From: Thermodesulfobium narugense DSM 14796
Lineage (GTDB): Bacteria > Thermodesulfobiota > Thermodesulfobiia > Thermodesulfobiales > Thermodesulfobiaceae
Length of the DNA: 64,000 bases
Direction of reading: 5' to 3'
Assembly: GCF_000212395.1 (NCBI RefSeq)
Contig: NC_015499.1
Location: forward strand, 1,623,421 to 1,687,420
Below the pieces are notes generated by a model, which ran no database searches, had not been told where the DNA came from, and saw nothing but the letters and a program-made list of their open reading frames with translations. Below are positions 3,466 through 52,100 of the stretch, piece after piece (position 1 is the first letter of the stretch; each line of letters begins with the position of its first letter). The position numbers and the translations under genes are program-made.

Positions 3466-3540
3466 GCGGGCGTAGTTCAATGGTAGAGCATCGGCTTCCC
3501 AAGCCGAGGGTTGAGGGTTCGAGCCCCTTCGCCCGCTCCA
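3466..3540 (+). tRNA. tRNA-Gly (CCC)
   Basis: The acceptor stem GCGGGCG pairs with CGCCCGC, the T loop GGTTCGAGCC is present, and the anticodon loop TTCCCAA gives anticodon CCC, reading GGG. The CCA end (3538-3540) is encoded. It is the first of three tRNAs in one transcript. Confidence 0.95.
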
Positions 3541-3550
3541 AAAGATTTAT

Positions 3551-3625
3551 GGCGACGTGGCCAAGCGGTAAGGCAAGGGCCTGCAAAGCCCTCATTCCCC
3601 AGTTCGAATCTGGGCGTCGCCTCCA
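3551..3625 (+). tRNA. tRNA-Cys (GCA)
   Basis: The acceptor stem GGCGACG pairs with CGTCGCC. The anticodon loop CTGCAAA gives GCA, reading UGC and UGU. The T arm CAGTTCGAATCTG is canonical and CCA is encoded at 3623-3625. It lies 10 bases after tRNA-Gly. Confidence 0.95.
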
Positions 3626-3633
3626 CAAAAGAT

Positions 3634-3718
3634 GCCGGGGTGGCGAAATGGCAGACGCAACGGACTTAAAATCCGTCGGGTATCCCCCGTGTGGGTTCGA
3701 GTCCCACCCCCGGCACCA
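3634..3718 (+). tRNA. tRNA-Leu (TAA)
   Basis: The acceptor stem GCCGGGG pairs with CCCCGGC. The anticodon loop CTTAAAA gives UAA. A long variable arm (CGGGTATCCCCCG) marks it as a class II tRNA, as expected for leucine. CCA is encoded at 3716-3718. Confidence 0.95.
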
Positions 3719-43644: not shown

Positions 43645-43986
43645 TTATCCAAAAAGCTTGTCGAATGGTCTTCTCTCTGGAACAGTTACTCTTTTATCTG
43701 GGTTTTGGTTCCACTCATGGCTAACATATAGGCCACAGTAGCAAGACCCATATTCTTCAACGTCCTTATCTTTATACGCACATGGACATATAATATCTTT
43801 ATCCTTTTCTCTATCGCCAGAATTCAACCTACAAGGACAACCCCTGTAACCATTCCTCCTTTCATTTTCCAAAATTCCCCTTATTATTGACATTGTATGT
43901 TCTAAATTGTTGTTTAATTCTTGCCCCTTAGAATGTGCATATTTTGTCAAAATTTCGAATAGCTTTTCAGGGGTTACAGGAGCCAT
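43645..43986 (-). CDS. ferredoxin:thioredoxin reductase catalytic-subunit-like protein
   Basis: The 113-aa protein has the FTR catalytic-chain cysteine set: CPC (residues 50-52), CPC (67-69) and CYC (82-84). These would hold a 4Fe-4S cluster next to a redox disulfide, passing electrons from ferredoxin to a thioredoxin- or glutaredoxin-like partner. In plant and cyanobacterial FTR the last motif is CHC, and the histidine tunes the disulfide; here it is tyrosine. No FTR variable subunit is nearby, as in other FTR-like disulfide reductases of anaerobes. The glutaredoxin-like gene is just upstream, three bases away, and is the likely substrate. Confidence 0.9.
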   Translation of the reverse strand: MAPVTPEKLFEILTKYAHSKGQELNNNLEHTMSIIRGILENERRNGYRGCPCRLNSGDREKDKDIICPCAYKDKDVEEYGSCYCGLYVSHEWNQNPDKRVTVPERRPFDKLFG

Positions 43987-43989
43987 AAT

Positions 43990-44250
43990 TTATACCAATC
44001 CCTTAATTTTTGTTTCGTTAAAACCCACTATAATAGTTTTCCCTTTCACTATAGTAGGAAATCCAGGATTAACCTTTGGATTACAACTATCAGCAAGTTT
44101 CTTGACTATTTCAAGAATCTTGTTTTGCTCTTCCTTTGGTAACAGATCTACATCAATAGCCTCAAAATCAGCCCCCAATTCCTTAAGAAGGGTTTTGGCC
44201 TTCTTGCAATAGGGGCAAGTACTTAAAGCATATACCGTTATCTGTGCCAT
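43990..44250 (-). CDS. glutaredoxin-like redox protein
   Basis: The 86-aa thioredoxin-fold protein begins MAQITVYALSTCPYCKKAKT with the CPYC site at residues 12-15. It continues GADFEAIDVDLL and has a glycine-proline loop (NPGFPTIVKGKTIIVGFNE) with the cis-proline. It resembles NrdH/glutaredoxin-like proteins used in anaerobes. The ATG follows GGAGG. It is followed by the FTR-like gene, so electrons probably flow from ferredoxin through FTR-like to this protein. Targets are unknown. Confidence 0.9.
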   Translation of the reverse strand: MAQITVYALSTCPYCKKAKTLLKELGADFEAIDVDLLPKEEQNKILEIVKKLADSCNPKVNPGFPTIVKGKTIIVGFNETKIKGLV

Positions 44251-44263
44251 AAAACCTCCAAAA

Positions 44264-44557
44264 TTAAGCTGAATTTTTTTCTATTTCCTTTAAAAGTTTA
44301 TATATGACTTTAAAGGTTAAAACCTTTGAAGTCCTGGCAATAGCATGAGATAATTCTTCTGCAGAATAAATATTGCAATTTTGAAGATAAATAGAATCTT
44401 GAACGCTAAAATTATTCTCTTCCATAAAGAGTTCAGGGTCAAATGCTAACATTCCATTCTGCTCACCGTAGTAAATTTTCAATAAAGAAGAAAGCAGTTC
44501 AGTAGCGGAAATATAATTGCCTATTTGACTAGATGAATCTACAATCTGATAAAACAC
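44264..44557 (-). CDS. hypothetical protein, 97 aa, in the FTR/glutaredoxin operon
   Basis: I do not recognise the family. The GTG start follows AAGGAGGTGA, an almost complete match to the anti-Shine-Dalgarno, with good spacing. The protein is soluble and mostly helical (ISATELLSSLLKIYYGEQNG, AEELSHAIARTSKVLTFKVI, KVIYKLLKEIEKNSA), with a single cysteine in LQNCNIYS. It lies 13 bases upstream of the glutaredoxin gene in the same direction and is its probable operon head. A regulatory or adaptor role in thiol metabolism is only a guess from position. Confidence 0.7.
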   Translation of the reverse strand: MFYQIVDSSSQIGNYISATELLSSLLKIYYGEQNGMLAFDPELFMEENNFSVQDSIYLQNCNIYSAEELSHAIARTSKVLTFKVIYKLLKEIEKNSA

Positions 44558-45100: not shown

Positions 45101-47650
45101 ATGGAGCTAGATTTTTATTATGAAAAGGATAAAAAAGAAAGGGAAAGCTTTGTAATATATCACTTGCGCGACCGTCTTCTTTACGGTCGAAAAATACTTT
45201 TTGAAAGAACTATTTGTGGTTTCATCGACCCTCTGGAAGTAGAAAGTTATTTAAATAAACTTTACAGGGAAGTGTGTTCTGATATATTAAAGTTCTGCAT
45301 AATAGAAGCAAGGGAAGAGGGATTTCCAGAAGAAGACATATGTATAGCTGCTGTTGGGGGCTTTGGCAGATGTGAAATGGCGCCTTATTCAGATATTGAT
45401 TTAGTTTTCTTGTCCCAAAACGAAGAAGGACCTTTTTTAGACAACGTTTTAAAAAGAGGATATAGGCTTTTATCAGATATCTTTTTTGGTATAGACTTAG
45501 AAGTCGGCTACAGTTTCAGAACCACAGAAATAAAACACATCGATCACATAACCAGAACCAGTTTTTTAGATTCTAACATTATTTCTGGAGATAACAACAT
45601 TTTCCAAGAATTTAAAAGAAATTTTTGGAACAGATTAAACTTAACTGAATTCATATTTGCAAAGTTATCAGAAAGAGAAATAGCCTCTCAAAAGTTCGGC
45701 GATAATCCTTATTTATTAAGTCCAAACCTTAAGGAGTGTAAAGGTGGACTTAGAGATTATCATACATTTAAGTGGATTTTTCAGAGCAGATTTGCGCTTC
45801 CAAACTGCTCAATTATCAAAGATGTAGAAGATACAAATATTTTAGATAAAAATGATATTGATAAACTCGAATCTTCATATCGATTTCTTAGAAAGATAAG
45901 AATCTTACTACATATAATGGCAAGAAAAAGACAAGATTATCTCTCAAAAAATTATCAATCAAGGTTAGCAGAATTTTTAGGTTATAAAAATTCAGTAGAA
46001 TTTATGAAAGAATTAATCTATTGTCTTGAAAATATTTCAGAAATATCTAATAGAGGTATAAAAAAGATACTTCAAGAAGGCTTTCAAATTTCTAGTTGTT
46101 TTTCAATAAAGGGTAATAATATTACTTATCAATACGACTCTCCTATTCAAATTTTTAGATTCGATTTTATAAGAGCTTTTGAATATAAATCTCTTTACGA
46201 TCTGGAATTATCAATAAATCTCGAAGAAGAGCTTATTAAACAACGAAGCAAATTAAGACCCAACGATGAAACCATGAACGTATTTTTAAAAATTCTAAAA
46301 AATGGAAAAAACAAAGCCTCTATATTAAGAAAAATGCAATACTTAGGTTTATTTGAGATACTAATACCAGAATCAAGGGGAATTTTTTATACTTTGCCTG
46401 AAGATCCTATGCATGAATTTACCATTGGAGAACACACAATGGTTATGATTGAAACTCTCGAAATGTTCGAAAGAGGCGATTTCGGACAAGAAATAGCAGA
46501 AATATTTAATTCCTTATCGGATCCACTCACTTTATATCTTGCAGCTTTATTTCATGATATTGCAAAGTTAAAAAATTCAGAAAATCACGACATAGAAGGT
46601 GCAAAGATATTTTCTAACTGGGCAAAGAAAACTAAATTAGATAAAAACACAATAAACAACGTTAATTTTATCATAGCAAATCATCTACAGATGGTAAGAA
46701 CCTCAAGATTAAGAGATCTACATAGAGAAGAAACTATCGAAGAATTCGCTCAATTAGTTTCAGACACAGAAAGGCTGAAAAACTTATATCTTATTTCTTA
46801 TGCAGATCTATATTCTTTGTCAAAAAAGAAACCAAGTCCAATATCAATTTATCAGCTAAACGAACTTTTCAAAAAGAGTCAATCAAATTTGTTGAAACCT
46901 ATATCGAAGACAAACTTTAAAGATGTATTTAAAAGGAATATAAAAAAGAGTTTACCAAACAAAGATGAAATCAATCTTTATATTGACAACATGCCTGCTA
47001 CCTATTTAATGAACATACCACAAGATATTATTGCGTTTCATTTAGATCTTATTTCCAGACTAAAAAATGAAACGCCTCAAGTATATTTCGAAGAATCAAT
47101 CAACAAAGATTTTTCAAAAGTCACTATTGCTACATATGAAATTGAGGGACTATTGTGGAAAATAGCAGCAGTATTCTATGGACACAATTTAGATATCCAC
47201 ACTGCTGAATTATACAAGTTCTCTACAGAGCCACCAGTGGTAATTAACGAAATTTGGACAACGTTCAAAAATAGACCAGTACCTGAATTTTTAGCGCAAT
47301 CAATAAAGAAAGATTTGAGCGATACTCTTAGCCTAAAAAAGGATATATTTGAATTATTAAGAGAAAAAAACAAGGACATAGAATTTCCAGTAAAACTTTT
47401 CAATGTTAACTGTTTAAACAATATATCTCCAAAATCAACTGTTATTGAAATAATTGCCGAAGATAGACACGGACTCTTGTATAGATTAACTCAGACTCTA
47501 TCCTCCCTTGGGCTTTATATACAAACAGCAAAAATTTCTACCTGGGAGGGTAGGGCTGAAGATGCATTTTATATTACAAAAGAAAATAACTTAAAGTTAA
47601 GTGACCAAGAATGTCAAGAATATTTGAAAAAAATAATTTACCATATATAA
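45101..47650 (+). CDS. glnD: PII uridylyltransferase/uridylyl-removing enzyme-like protein (GlnD)
   Basis: GlnD modifies the nitrogen signal protein PII according to glutamine. The 849-aa protein has the nucleotidyltransferase core GGFGRCEMAPYSDIDLVF near residue 85 (family GGYGRGEL; here a cysteine replaces the second glycine), the KGGLRDY segment, a central HD domain (HEFTIGEHT and LFHDIAKLKNSENHD, near residues 445 and 480) and two C-terminal ACT domains (VTIATYEIEGLLWKIAAVFY and VIEIIAEDRHGLLYRLTQTL). GlnD is mostly proteobacterial, so its presence beside monoderm-type genes is unusual. The ATG has no visible ribosome site; no better start is found. No PII gene is in the window. Confidence 0.9.
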   Translation: MELDFYYEKDKKERESFVIYHLRDRLLYGRKILFERTICGFIDPLEVESYLNKLYREVCSDILKFCIIEAREEGFPEEDICIAAVGGFGRCEMAPYSDIDLVFLSQNEEGPFLDNVLKRGYRLLSDIFFGIDLEVGYSFRTTEIKHIDHITRTSFLDSNIISGDNNIFQEFKRNFWNRLNLTEFIFAKLSEREIASQKFGDNPYLLSPNLKECKGGLRDYHTFKWIFQSRFALPNCSIIKDVEDTNILDKNDIDKLESSYRFLRKIRILLHIMARKRQDYLSKNYQSRLAEFLGYKNSVEFMKELIYCLENISEISNRGIKKILQEGFQISSCFSIKGNNITYQYDSPIQIFRFDFIRAFEYKSLYDLELSINLEEELIKQRSKLRPNDETMNVFLKILKNGKNKASILRKMQYLGLFEILIPESRGIFYTLPEDPMHEFTIGEHTMVMIETLEMFERGDFGQEIAEIFNSLSDPLTLYLAALFHDIAKLKNSENHDIEGAKIFSNWAKKTKLDKNTINNVNFIIANHLQMVRTSRLRDLHREETIEEFAQLVSDTERLKNLYLISYADLYSLSKKKPSPISIYQLNELFKKSQSNLLKPISKTNFKDVFKRNIKKSLPNKDEINLYIDNMPATYLMNIPQDIIAFHLDLISRLKNETPQVYFEESINKDFSKVTIATYEIEGLLWKIAAVFYGHNLDIHTAELYKFSTEPPVVINEIWTTFKNRPVPEFLAQSIKKDLSDTLSLKKDIFELLREKNKDIEFPVKLFNVNCLNNISPKSTVIEIIAEDRHGLLYRLTQTLSSLGLYIQTAKISTWEGRAEDAFYITKENNLKLSDQECQEYLKKIIYHI

Positions 47651-47693
47651 TCTCTTCTTTGCTGTATTCTAAACAACTTATTAAAAATGCTTT

Positions 47694-47711
47694 AAGGAGG
47701 AAAAAACAATA
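47694..47711 (+). promoter_or_regulatory. ribosome-binding site pointing to an AUA start for the M20-like gene
   Basis: AAGGAGG (47694-47700) is followed after eight bases by ATA (47709-47711), then GAT ATT AAG AAA. The frame has a TAA at 47682-47684 and no ATG, GTG or TTG until 47775, well inside the conserved region. Confidence 0.65.
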
Positions 47712-48908
47712 GATATTAAGAAAATAATTGAAGAATTTTCAGAAATTAGTTCAAAAAACGACGAAGTCTTTCGCTTGGGGTATTCAGAGGAAGAAGACAA
47801 AGCTATTAACTATGTTTTGAAATTGCTTCCAAAAAATTTCGAAATTAAGACAGATAATATTGGCAATCTAATTGCAATGTACAATGAAGACCCTTCAGCT
47901 AAAAAGGTTTTACTCGGCATTCACCTCGATACAATTCCATTTAGTGGCAAATATTCATCGTCGCTTCCTATGATAGTAGCAGTTGGATCTATCAATAAAT
48001 TATTAGAAAAAGATTTTTATCCAAAGAAAACAGTTGGCTTAATAATCTTTAGAGCCACTTCTCCAAACAGATTCTCGAGGGGCTGTATTGGTTCAAGAGG
48101 AGCAGTAGGAGAGCTAAATGAAAGAGATCTGTATCTTTCAGATAAAGATGGAGTATTATTACAAGATGAAATAATAAAGAGAAGTCTTGGGCTTTCAAGT
48201 AGTTTTCCTACATTTTTTAAAGATGATATATATACTTTTTTGGAACTAGAAAGCGACTTTTCAGGCATATTAAGTGAAAAATCCATACCAATTTGTATGG
48301 TAAAAAACCAACAAGGACCTGTTATTTTAAAATTATCCATCGTAGGCAAAATACAATATACCTGTTGCACCCCATCTAACTTAATTAAAAACCCTTTAAA
48401 TGCTTTTACAAAGATTTTGGATCTTCTTTATAAAATGATGAAAGAAAATAAGCTGTTCGGTGGAGTATACGAAATTAATATGGAACCAAAAGTCATGGGA
48501 GTCTTTCCAACTAGAATAAACTTTAATCTAGATCTAAGATCGCCAGATTTGAAATTAAGGAGCGAACTTCTTAATAATCTTAAAGACATGATAAACAAAA
48601 TATCTGAAGAAGAAAGTTGTCAAATAGATATTTTAAGCCAAACATCTCATTCTCCTCATATCTTTTCAGATAAACTCATCGAAATTTCAAAAAAGATATT
48701 TTTAAAAAATAACATCAAGCCAATAACAATTGACACTGGAATTCTTTCTAATGCAAGGTGGATGAGTCTGGTAAGTCAGGAAACAGGAATGTTTTTGTTA
48801 AGATACAAGAAAGGAAATTCACCTAAAAAAGAAGAGATAAACGAAAATGATATAATCCTAAGTATCGATGTCGTCAGTGAAATATTAAAGGAGAGAGTTT
48901 CTCTATGA
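47709..48908 (+). CDS. M20/N-carbamoylase-like protein with lost active site, probable AUA start
   Basis: The 399-aa protein follows the Zn-dependent M20 hydantoinase/carbamoylase fold: NIGNLIAMY, LLGIHLDTIPFSGKYSSSL, GCIGSRGAVGELNERDL, VVGK-type lid region and a C-terminal ISIDVV. Family metal ligands can be aligned by eye. The first His (GIHLDT) remains. The Asp of GxYDG is Ser (GKYSSS), the DEE pair is replaced (ATSPNRF), the LHIEQG histidine is gone (LELESDFSG), and the last histidine (SHSPEE) is missing (NSPKKEE). It should not be an active metallohydrolase. The upstream codons from ATA match the family N-terminus, so the ATA at 47709 is the best start. It overlaps rapZ by four bases and is thus coupled to rapZ-yvcK-whiA. 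Confidence 0.75.
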   Translation: MDIKKIIEEFSEISSKNDEVFRLGYSEEEDKAINYVLKLLPKNFEIKTDNIGNLIAMYNEDPSAKKVLLGIHLDTIPFSGKYSSSLPMIVAVGSINKLLEKDFYPKKTVGLIIFRATSPNRFSRGCIGSRGAVGELNERDLYLSDKDGVLLQDEIIKRSLGLSSSFPTFFKDDIYTFLELESDFSGILSEKSIPICMVKNQQGPVILKLSIVGKIQYTCCTPSNLIKNPLNAFTKILDLLYKMMKENKLFGGVYEINMEPKVMGVFPTRINFNLDLRSPDLKLRSELLNNLKDMINKISEEESCQIDILSQTSHSPHIFSDKLIEISKKIFLKNNIKPITIDTGILSNARWMSLVSQETGMFLLRYKKGNSPKKEEINENDIILSIDVVSEILKERVSL

Positions 48909-49783
48909 ATGCTGGACCATGGCTTATAATATTAACTGGCCTTTCTGGCGCAGGAAAATCTCAAGCTTTACATGCTCTTGAAGATTTAGGCTTTTTTTGC
49001 ATAGATAACCTGCCGCCGTTCTTGCTGCCTGAGCTTACAAGATTCTCTTTTTCGCCTAAATTTCCAATTTCTCGTATGGCAGTAGTAATAGACATTAGGG
49101 GAAAAACTCTTTTTCCTGATTTACAAAATATCCTAAAAAAGATAAAGGAACAACCAATAAATATAACCACACTCTTTCTTGAAGCTAGTGACGAGGTGCT
49201 AATCAGAAGATTTTCAGAAACGAGAAGGCGCCATCCACTATCTCAAGAGGGAGGATACCTCTCTGCGGGAATCATAAAAGAAAGAGAAATGCTTTCAGTA
49301 ATAAGAGAGATGTCAGATATAGTTATAGACACTTCATATATGAAAGTAAATCAACTAAAAGAAAGGCTAAGAGCTTATTTTACTTCAGAAGAAGAACAAA
49401 TTTTTAATACAACCCTTCTTTCATTTGGCTTCAAATATGGCATACCTATGGATGCAGATATGATTATAGATGTGAGATTTCTACCAAATCCGTTTTATGA
49501 AGAACACCTAAAAAATTTAACAGGTATGGACGCTCCCGTAGAAGAATTTATACTCTCACAAGAGGTTACTAAAAATTTTCTTAAGGTTTTAGATCAATAT
49601 CTCTTATTTTTTCTTCCAAAGTGCATGGAAGAAGGAAAAAGCAATGTAACCATCGCAATAGGTTGCACAGGAGGAGAACACAGGTCTGTTACAATAGTTC
49701 GCGAGTTAGCAAGAAGATACAGAAATTTAGGCTTCAAAATTTTTGAGTGGCACAGAGATCTGAAAATTGGGAGAAACGCTTAA
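48905..49783 (+). CDS. rapZ: RapZ/YvcJ nucleotide-binding protein
   Basis: The 292-aa protein has a P-loop GLSGAGKSQALHALEDLGFF near residue 13 and the C-terminal signature IAIGCTGGEHRSVTIVRELA. RapZ is an RNase adapter that controls GlmZ/GlmS in E. coli; YvcJ hydrolyses GTP in Bacillus. The position before yvcK and whiA matches the conserved monoderm cluster. It begins in the last codons of the M20-like gene (ATGA overlap) and its TAA is adjacent to the ATG of yvcK. Confidence 0.95.
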   Translation: MNAGPWLIILTGLSGAGKSQALHALEDLGFFCIDNLPPFLLPELTRFSFSPKFPISRMAVVIDIRGKTLFPDLQNILKKIKEQPINITTLFLEASDEVLIRRFSETRRRHPLSQEGGYLSAGIIKEREMLSVIREMSDIVIDTSYMKVNQLKERLRAYFTSEEEQIFNTTLLSFGFKYGIPMDADMIIDVRFLPNPFYEEHLKNLTGMDAPVEEFILSQEVTKNFLKVLDQYLLFFLPKCMEEGKSNVTIAIGCTGGEHRSVTIVRELARRYRNLGFKIFEWHRDLKIGRNA

Positions 49784-51088
49784 ATGAGTTTTAGACCTTT
49801 AAAGTGGCTAAGATGGTTAACACCCGGTTTAGGAATAAAAAGATGGATCTTTCTTGGTTCCTTTTCTTTGCTTTTAATAGTAACAAGCTTAATATTATCT
49901 TTAGAAGCAATTTCGATAACAAGATCGTTTATTAAGAGTTTATCTTATTTTATTCATGAAATTTCTTCAAAAATACCAATTCAGATAATCTCTCTATTAT
50001 TGTTTTTGATAGGCTTTGTAGCATTAATTTATTCCATTAGAGGTTTAGTAAAACAAATTGTTAAGCCTATGCAAATAGGATCAAGAAGAGACGTGGTAGA
50101 GCTGCTGTGGCTCGAAAGACAGTTAAAAAAAAGGCCACAGGTAGTTGCAATTGGCGGCGGAACAGGCCAGTCTACAGTTCTTAGAGGTTTGAAATATTAT
50201 CCTATAAATCTAACTGCAATAGTAACTCCTTTTGACGATGGCGGTTCTTCAGGGTTCATAAGAAAAGAATTAGGATTTCTTCCTCCTGGAGATATAAGAA
50301 ATTGTTTAGCCGCCTTATCTCTCCAGGAAGATTTGCTCGGAGCTGTTTTGCAATATAGATTTAAGGGCATACCTGGACTTGAAGGACATCCAGTAGGGAA
50401 TATCCTCTTAGCTGCTGCCACAGAAATAACTGGAGATTTTCTAAAAGCTATTAATATGGTTGAAAAAATAATTTCAGCAAGAGGACATGTTATACCTTCA
50501 ACTCTATTTAATACAAGACTTTGCGCAAAACTGAAAGACGGCTCAATTGTTGAGGGAGAATCAAATATATCAAGAAGTATTTACCCAATAGAAACTATAT
50601 TTTTAGATCCTTTACCTCCCAGCGCTTTCCCGGAAGCCATAAAAAAAATCAATGAAGCGGATGCAATTGTTATCGGACCTGGGAGTCTCTTTACAAGTAT
50701 TTTGCCAAATTTACTTATGAAAGACCTATTAGAAGCAATAAAAGATTCGAAAGCAATAAAAATTTATGTCTGTAATATCATGACACAACCGGGAGAAACA
50801 GGAGGTTATAAAGCTTCGGACCACGTTAGAGCCTTTTTGGAGATACTAGGCTTTTTGCCATTTGACATAGTTCTTCTAAACAACAAAAAGCCCGAAAAAC
50901 TTATAGACTATTATGAACAAAAAGGCTCTGAAATAGTAATTAACGACCTACCTGAACTCGAAAAATTTAAAGTTAAAACAGTTCTGGCGGATTTGTTATA
51001 TGAAGAAAACCATATAAGACACGATCACAAAAAATTAGCAAAAATCATTTTTGACAATATATTTAAAAGTAACAAAAAATTACATTAG
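49784..51088 (+). CDS. yvcK: YvcK gluconeogenesis factor with N-terminal membrane helices
   Basis: The 434-aa protein has a CofD-like fold, with VVAIGGGTGQSTVLRGLKYY near residue 120, TPFDDGGSSGFIRKELGFLP and GNILLAAATEITG. YvcK binds UDP-sugars and is needed for growth on gluconeogenic carbon and for cell-wall precursor flux. Unlike the plain Bacillus form (about 317 aa), this one carries about 105 extra residues with two membrane helices (GIKRWIFLGSFSLLLIVTS, IQIISLLLFLIGFVALIYSI), a variant found in several anaerobes. It directly follows rapZ with no gap. Confidence 0.94.
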   Translation: MSFRPLKWLRWLTPGLGIKRWIFLGSFSLLLIVTSLILSLEAISITRSFIKSLSYFIHEISSKIPIQIISLLLFLIGFVALIYSIRGLVKQIVKPMQIGSRRDVVELLWLERQLKKRPQVVAIGGGTGQSTVLRGLKYYPINLTAIVTPFDDGGSSGFIRKELGFLPPGDIRNCLAALSLQEDLLGAVLQYRFKGIPGLEGHPVGNILLAAATEITGDFLKAINMVEKIISARGHVIPSTLFNTRLCAKLKDGSIVEGESNISRSIYPIETIFLDPLPPSAFPEAIKKINEADAIVIGPGSLFTSILPNLLMKDLLEAIKDSKAIKIYVCNIMTQPGETGGYKASDHVRAFLEILGFLPFDIVLLNNKKPEKLIDYYEQKGSEIVINDLPELEKFKVKTVLADLLYEENHIRHDHKKLAKIIFDNIFKSNKKLH

Positions 51089-51236: not shown

Positions 51237-52100
51237 ATGTTGAAATTAAAAAATGACGAAAATGAAATAATAAGAAGTGAAATAGCTTCTTTACCCATAG
51301 AGAACAAAAGACTGTCAAAATTTGAGTTGAAAGGCATAATGCTTTCTCACTCGAAAGCTAATGACAAGGGAATTATTATAAAGTGTAAAAACTTTAAAGT
51401 AGCTAAAAGAACAATTATGTTAGCTCATTTTCTAAATATAAAAACAGAGTTATATCAAAAATCCAAAAAATCAAAAAATTCTCAAGAAACTCAAAAGACT
51501 ACAATGGTAAAATTAGAAAAGTTTTTATTGCCAGATCCACCAGAAACATTTCCATCTCAAAAATCCATCCAGAGTTTCTTAAGAGGATTATTTCTAAATT
51601 CAGGTTATTTAAGCACAAAAAATGGTTATCACCTCGAAATTATCACAAATAGCGAAATATTTGGTTTTCTTTCTGCACTCCTAGAAGAAATTGGCTTTAA
51701 TTTTAAAATAAGAAAAGCCAACAGCTACTCTCTTTTTTTAAAAAATTTTAACGAAATAGTTTCCTTTTTAGCATATATTCAAGTGCATAATTTCTGTGCC
51801 TACCTTGAAGCAGAAGCCATAAAAAAGGAAGCTAATAACGAAATAAACAGAGAAGTAAACTATGAAACTGGCAATATAAAAAGGCAAATAAAGGCATCTC
51901 TTGAAATATTAAGATCAATAAATATTCTTGAAAGTTCTGAAAATTATTATAAATTGCCTATAAAATGGCAAAAAATGATGGCCTTAAAGAAAGATCACCC
52001 ATTATTTTCCATGAAAGAAATTGGAGAACATCTTGGAATGTCAAAAAATCAAGTTTCATCTGTATTTAGACAAATAAGGAAATTAACATTTAACCTGTAG
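51237..52100 (+). CDS. whiA: WhiA family DNA-binding protein
   Basis: The 287-aa protein contains a LAGLIDADG-like half (FLRGLFLNSGYLSTKNGYHL near residue 115) and a C-terminal helix-turn-helix (KDHPLFSMKEIGEHLGMSKN, QVSSVFRQIRKLTFNL). WhiA links cell division, chromosome segregation and carbon metabolism in monoderms and is a regulator of sporulation in Streptomyces. It completes the rapZ-yvcK-whiA trio, after a 148-base gap with its own promoter. The N-terminal region has diverged from typical WhiA, with a lysine-rich linker (KSKKSKNSQETQK). Next follows gap after ten bases. Confidence 0.88.
   Translation: MLKLKNDENEIIRSEIASLPIENKRLSKFELKGIMLSHSKANDKGIIIKCKNFKVAKRTIMLAHFLNIKTELYQKSKKSKNSQETQKTTMVKLEKFLLPDPPETFPSQKSIQSFLRGLFLNSGYLSTKNGYHLEIITNSEIFGFLSALLEEIGFNFKIRKANSYSLFLKNFNEIVSFLAYIQVHNFCAYLEAEAIKKEANNEINREVNYETGNIKRQIKASLEILRSINILESSENYYKLPIKWQKMMALKKDHPLFSMKEIGEHLGMSKNQVSSVFRQIRKLTFNL

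Follow-up and report, generated by a model that had tools for sequence, protein, structure and literature searches.

The gene immediately upstream of rapZ in the window analyzed here (a stretch of 64,000 nucleotides from Thermodesulfobium narugense) encodes a protein, P0001, that appears to be an M20-family carbamoylase homolog stripped of its metal center. Since all four genomes of the genus keep this ligand-less gene nearly unchanged, P0001 probably serves in binding or control now and no longer as an enzyme. Carbamoylases are amidases whose substrates are N-carbamoyl or ureido amino acids.

Gene neighborhood

The gene and its neighbors are located as follows.

45101..47650, + strand: glnD (PII uridylyltransferase), 58 bp upstream of the M20 gene; domain match, order kept in G001-G003
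47709..48908, + strand: M20 carbamoylase-fold protein P0001, 399 aa, putatively catalytically dead; homology, alignment, dN/dS and fold model
48905..49783, + strand: rapZ, with an ATGA overlap with the M20 gene; RapZ N domain E 4e-49, C domain E 3e-44
49784..51088, + strand: yvcK/glmR, with an N-terminal hydrophobic extension; CofD domain at residues 120-405, N-terminus from translation
51237..52100, + strand: whiA; domain match

The M20 frame (47709-48908, + strand) runs uninterrupted for 399 codons to a TGA, and its end shares the 4 bp ATGA with the start of rapZ, exactly as a sequence-only reading of this DNA had described. The same ATGA overlap is present in G002 and G003, and rapZ has its own Shine-Dalgarno-like sequence approximately 11 nt upstream. 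The sequence-only reading also placed the gene at the head of a rapZ-yvcK-whiA operon. Its position before rapZ is confirmed, but its position as operon head is not established, because the end of glnD is so near and the DNA between the two genes showed no terminator-like site. A promoter scan performed at background level (42 sites found versus 40 expected); the best promoter-like site, at 47624-47651, was rejected on that account and because its -10 element is not kept in G002. No riboswitch or other RNA was found in the operon, the sole Rfam matches of the window being three tRNAs at 3466-3715.

Because all four genomes have glnD directly before the M20 gene, a neighbor that the sequence-only reading did not take into account, a role in nitrogen control is a serious rival, in which P0001 would have GlnD rather than rapZ-yvcK as its partner, would sense or hold a ureido or amino-acid ligand rich in nitrogen and would act on PII uridylylation. 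The conserved gene order is consistent with this, as is the action of the ancestral family on ureido nitrogen compounds. However, the translational overlap of the M20 gene is with rapZ, not with glnD, and GlnD already possesses a C-terminal ACT domain of its own. We consider a GlnD partnership unlikely.

Two other features of the region were observed. YvcK/GlmR has an N-terminal extension of approximately 110 residues with two hydrophobic stretches ahead of its CofD-like domain, which suggests a membrane-anchored form. At 43645-44557 (- strand), a ferredoxin-thioredoxin reductase catalytic chain adjoins a glutaredoxin-like protein, and a further 97-aa frame there (44264-44557) has no Pfam match.

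Family membership and predicted fold

P0001 aligns over nearly its whole length with the TIGR01879 profile (E 2.8e-44; residues 4-388 to profile positions 4-393) and also matches NF006771 (E 2.9e-48), but the scores are below the family cut-offs (151.7 bits against 204 for TIGR01879; below the curated cut-off for NF006771), and a Pfam search returned no match. These alignments indicate, far beyond chance, a full-length homolog of the M20 hydantoinase/carbamoylase family. It is the only TIGR01879 protein in the source genome, where the second match (2.7e-5) is a different M20 protein. The best sequence match among solved structures is the ureidoglycolate hydrolase of Arabidopsis (UAH; 4pxb, 4pxe; 3e-25), and a solved L-N-carbamoylase matches at 5e-23. 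UAH and P0001 have the stretches IPxSGKY and PxRFxxxCxGSR in common. Nonetheless, UAH is an active enzyme with its metal site, and the family tree does not group the dead proteins with UAH; their branch is very long, at 4.3, which prevents the placing of their active ancestor.

The structure of P0001 was modeled from an alignment with six homologs, active enzymes among them (mean pLDDT 88.8, pTM 0.87). Comparison of the model with known structures, a check proposed in the sequence-only reading, returned the carbamoylase fold: Foldseek gave TM scores of 0.80-0.89 to the carbamoylases 3n5f, 5thw and 8c46, and other M20 enzymes all ranked lower. The two-domain fold, catalytic plus dimerization, is thus predicted to be intact. 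Since the alignment contains active homologs, which favor that fold, the model agrees with the sequence and is not independent proof.

The former active site

P0001 was compared with 24 homologs from other bacteria, all of which have intact ligands. The assignment of motif residues to metals follows the M20 family at large. The sites of interest are listed below.

47922..47930, + strand: His72-Leu-Asp74, the only retained part of the metal site; alignment
47955..47957, + strand: Ser83, replacing the bridging Asp (Asp in 24/24 homologs; Ser in 4/4 genomes of the genus)
48057..48062, + strand: Thr117-Ser118, replacing the catalytic Glu and the metal-binding Glu (Glu-Glu in 24/24 homologs)
48249..48251, + strand: Glu181, replacing the metal His of LHIEQG; alignment
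48537..48539, + strand: Arg277, retained carboxylate-binding Arg; invariant in homologs, role from PMC10952681
48822..48824, + strand: Pro372, replacing the last metal His; alignment

From the two-metal set of the family (His, bridging Asp, Glu, His, His), the first His alone is kept. This pattern had been recognized by eye, and the alignment agrees with it at the retained His of GIHLDT, at the bridging Asp, at the catalytic DEE (now Ala-Thr117-Ser118) and at the LHIEQG His. The loss of the final His is likewise real, but the residue in its place is Pro372, and the Asn named earlier sits two residues before it. Further changes include the His of HAG (Tyr217), the Asn of NVIP (Gly264), the Gln of LHIEQG (Phe184) and the His-Asp of GHDA (Ser347-Asn348). 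P0001 and the TIGR01879 amidases (L-N-carbamoylase 3n5f, 8apz) therefore have full-length homology, the predicted two-domain fold and the carboxylate Arg in common, whereas P0001 is without the catalytic Glu, the bridging Asp, the metal Glu and the His residues of LHIEQG and SHSPEE, is also without the substrate His, Asn and Gln, and scores under the family cut-off. On the alignment, the loss of the metal-ligand and catalytic residues is well supported.

In the Rhizobium enzyme RrCbetaAA, Arg291 forms a salt bridge with the substrate carboxylate (PMC10952681). Its residues Glu131, Gln196, Arg291 and His385 correspond to positions 117, 184, 277 and 372 of P0001, and these consistent offsets agree with Arg277 being the equivalent substrate-carboxylate Arg.

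Could the ligands have moved elsewhere? P0001 has three His in all, of which two are invariant in the genus, and with so few the standard two-metal site does not appear to have been rebuilt at other positions; no replacement set of ligands is evident in the sequence, although clusters of Cys, Asp and Glu may still exist in the folded protein. A working carbamoylase or peptidase with shifted ligands would fit the intact predicted fold and the retained His72 and Arg277, but the catalytic Glu and all but one of the five ligand positions have been altered, and we regard such an enzyme as very improbable.

Conservation and selection in the genus

The genus is represented by four genomes (G000-G003) forming two close pairs. 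The M20 gene is found in all four, at 81-91% identity and with identical replaced residues; both the gene and its altered sites are thus present in relatives. The frames of G000, G002 and G003 are of near-equal length and free of stops and frameshifts; the contig of G001 stops inside the gene after 231 residues, all open. G002 and G003 both retain the arrangement glnD-M20-rapZ-yvcK-whiA-gap-pgk, of which G001 shows glnD-M20. The position before rapZ is conserved wherever the contigs reach, with M20, rapZ and yvcK found together in G000, G002 and G003.

The dN/dS ratios of the M20 gene are 0.080, 0.049 and 0.066 in three comparisons, two of which have synonymous sites near saturation. These values are close to those of whiA (0.05-0.11) and above those of rapZ (0.01-0.02), and they show that the gene is under purifying selection. 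If the gene were a decaying remnant without function, then both the missing catalytic residues and the missing standard start codon would be readily understood, but the low dN/dS and the intact frames rule out decay, which we consider barely credible. The independent evidence is limited because the species fall into two close pairs, and, the gene being confined to one genus among the genomes searched, its conservation rests on these four species.

Selection is not spread evenly along the protein. Of the 33 family-conserved sites that have changed, 29 are fixed within the genus; the corresponding share over all sites is 76%. Furthermore, the former active-site segments have 171 invariant sites out of 200 (86%), whereas 133 of 199 sites (67%) are invariant elsewhere (Fisher's exact test, P = 1e-5, to be taken loosely because the segments were hand-picked around the motifs). 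Selection on the protein sequence is well supported by these comparisons, and it is strongest in the region of the former pocket.

Such conservation could also be explained by new chemistry, if the pocket had been rebuilt around His72, Glu181, Asp183, Thr117, Ser118, Tyr217 and Cys219-Cys220 so as to act on a related ligand with one metal or none. P0001 does have five invariant Cys, which, along with the Glu at a former His site, might coordinate a metal. On the other hand, no catalytic or metal cluster is recognizable in the sequence, the catalytic Glu, the HAG His, the GHDA His-Asp and the Gln were lost together, and a binding role explains the conservation of the pocket equally well. A rebuilt activity is, in our judgment, rather improbable.

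The earlier proposal of a conserved fold with lost chemistry, kept for binding, can thus be upheld in its first part: the ligands are gone, the fold is predicted to be intact and dN/dS is low, in four species. We infer from the lost residues that P0001 is catalytically inactive, and its ligand binding and the identity of its partner are likewise inferred. Similar cases are known among metallopeptidase pseudoenzymes, in which the fold is kept, the metal ligands are lost and the protein is retained by selection (reviewed in PMC11266112), although P0001 differs in its genomic setting beside rapZ-yvcK-whiA. Searched by words, that review showed no treatment of M20 proteins or carbamoylases, and no carbamoylase pseudoenzyme was found in the literature searched.

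Start codon and translation

The start of the M20 gene is marked by two features.

47694..47700, + strand: Shine-Dalgarno sequence AAGGAGG, 8 nt before the ATA; sequence, conserved context
47709..47711, + strand: probable ATA start codon of the M20 gene; conserved context, infC parallel

Each of the four genomes retains the start context (A/G)AGGAGGAAAA(A/T)ACAATA, the Shine-Dalgarno sequence reading GAGGAGG instead of AAGGAGG in two species. Within the first 60 codons there is no ATG, GTG or TTG common to the four orthologs; a standard internal start at TTG 47775 was rejected because it is absent from two of the four. The gene infC, encoding IF3, offers a parallel in the same genomes: in all four, GGAGG is followed after 8 nt by ATA (L097, G000:C1:298001; L113, L114 and L115), with an in-frame GTG also present that overlaps the Shine-Dalgarno region. 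The M20 gene therefore has a probable ATA start, as judged from the conserved context.

In staphylococci, non-canonical starts are conserved behind extended Shine-Dalgarno sequences, including AUA at infC and ccpN (PMC13009471). The M20 gene resembles S. aureus ccpN and infC in its conserved AUA behind an extended Shine-Dalgarno sequence, and infC of the genus appears to be ATA-started as in S. aureus. However, ccpN is a different gene, and the M20 start is predicted from sequence. S. aureus AUA/AUU sites with extended Shine-Dalgarno sequences give approximately 10% of AUG expression, and ccpN up to 30% in rich medium (PMC13009471); by analogy, low and IF3-sensitive translation is a reasonable prediction for the M20 gene.

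Weak start codons serve attenuation (PMC13009471), and it may be asked whether the product itself matters. The conserved AUA start and ATGA overlap would be expected if weak translation of the M20 gene mainly set the translation of rapZ. Conversely, rapZ has a Shine-Dalgarno-like sequence of its own, and the low dN/dS and pocket-centered conservation indicate that the amino-acid sequence is selected. We find such a role decidedly unlikely.

Two side observations concern start codons in this genome. Since ATA is not among its permitted starts, the automatic frame list begins the M20 gene at TTG 47775 (377 aa), and annotations produced by a similar procedure may be missing the protein's first 22 residues. 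In addition, a 347-aa frame that looks like a small mechanosensitive channel (L107, G000:C1:1353842) is preceded by AAGGAGGTAATATACATA and may likewise have an ATA start.

Distribution outside the genus

Ligand-less members were searched for in 386 whole genomes of many families, and none was found outside the genus; only active homologs were detected. Among the matches listed in the genome_contigs scan, the only one outside the genus was an active enzyme of Chitinophagaceae. At 20 rapZ loci from other families, no carbamoylase was present within approximately 3 kb upstream (fewer bases at contig ends), and where genomes were listed with matches to both carbamoylase and rapZ, the two genes were not near each other. 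The statement that no link between such a protein and this operon had been described agrees with our literature searches, which found none between the rapZ-yvcK-whiA operon and an M20 protein.

A probable binding protein beside the RapZ/GlmR node

The fold, the conserved pocket and the carboxylate Arg, in the absence of the chemistry, are best read as those of a binding protein. We propose that an M20-family carbamoylase lost its two-metal catalytic center and was retained for binding. With its fold and Arg277, P0001 would close on a small carboxylate-bearing ligand, or present a partner-binding face, without hydrolysis. It would be produced alongside rapZ-yvcK-whiA and at a low level, because its translation would start at AUA behind a strong Shine-Dalgarno sequence, and it would adjust the product of an adjacent gene, first of all at the amino-sugar node of RapZ, GlmR and GlmS (GlmS is encoded in the source genome). 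For this account as a whole, a low-level binding protein that most likely adjusts such a partner, we see roughly an even chance of being correct. The partners are suggested by gene position alone, and shared gene order is no proof of joint function. For the earlier suggestion that P0001 may bind a peptide, a ureido compound, RapZ or YvcK, Arg277 and the rapZ/yvcK neighborhood are no more than circumstantial.

In B. subtilis, GlmS is stimulated by GlmR (YvcK), which switches to binding the RapZ homolog YvcJ when UDP-GlcNAc is high (PMC7525490). A more specific possibility, which we hold to be doubtful but worth stating, is that the dead carbamoylase is a dedicated sensor or adaptor of RapZ-GlmR-GlmS, its dose kept low via AUA and made dependent on IF3 and growth state. 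If this is true, then a dead carbamoylase would have been recruited in one deep-branching lineage to control the supply of cell-wall amino sugars.

The RapZ/GlmR (YvcK) node controls the flow of carbon into the bacterial cell wall, and to our knowledge little is known of its metabolic sensing outside E. coli and B. subtilis. The conserved AUA start makes a second claim, on translational attenuation. A lineage-specific dead enzyme translated together with the operon would be a concrete candidate sensor for this node.
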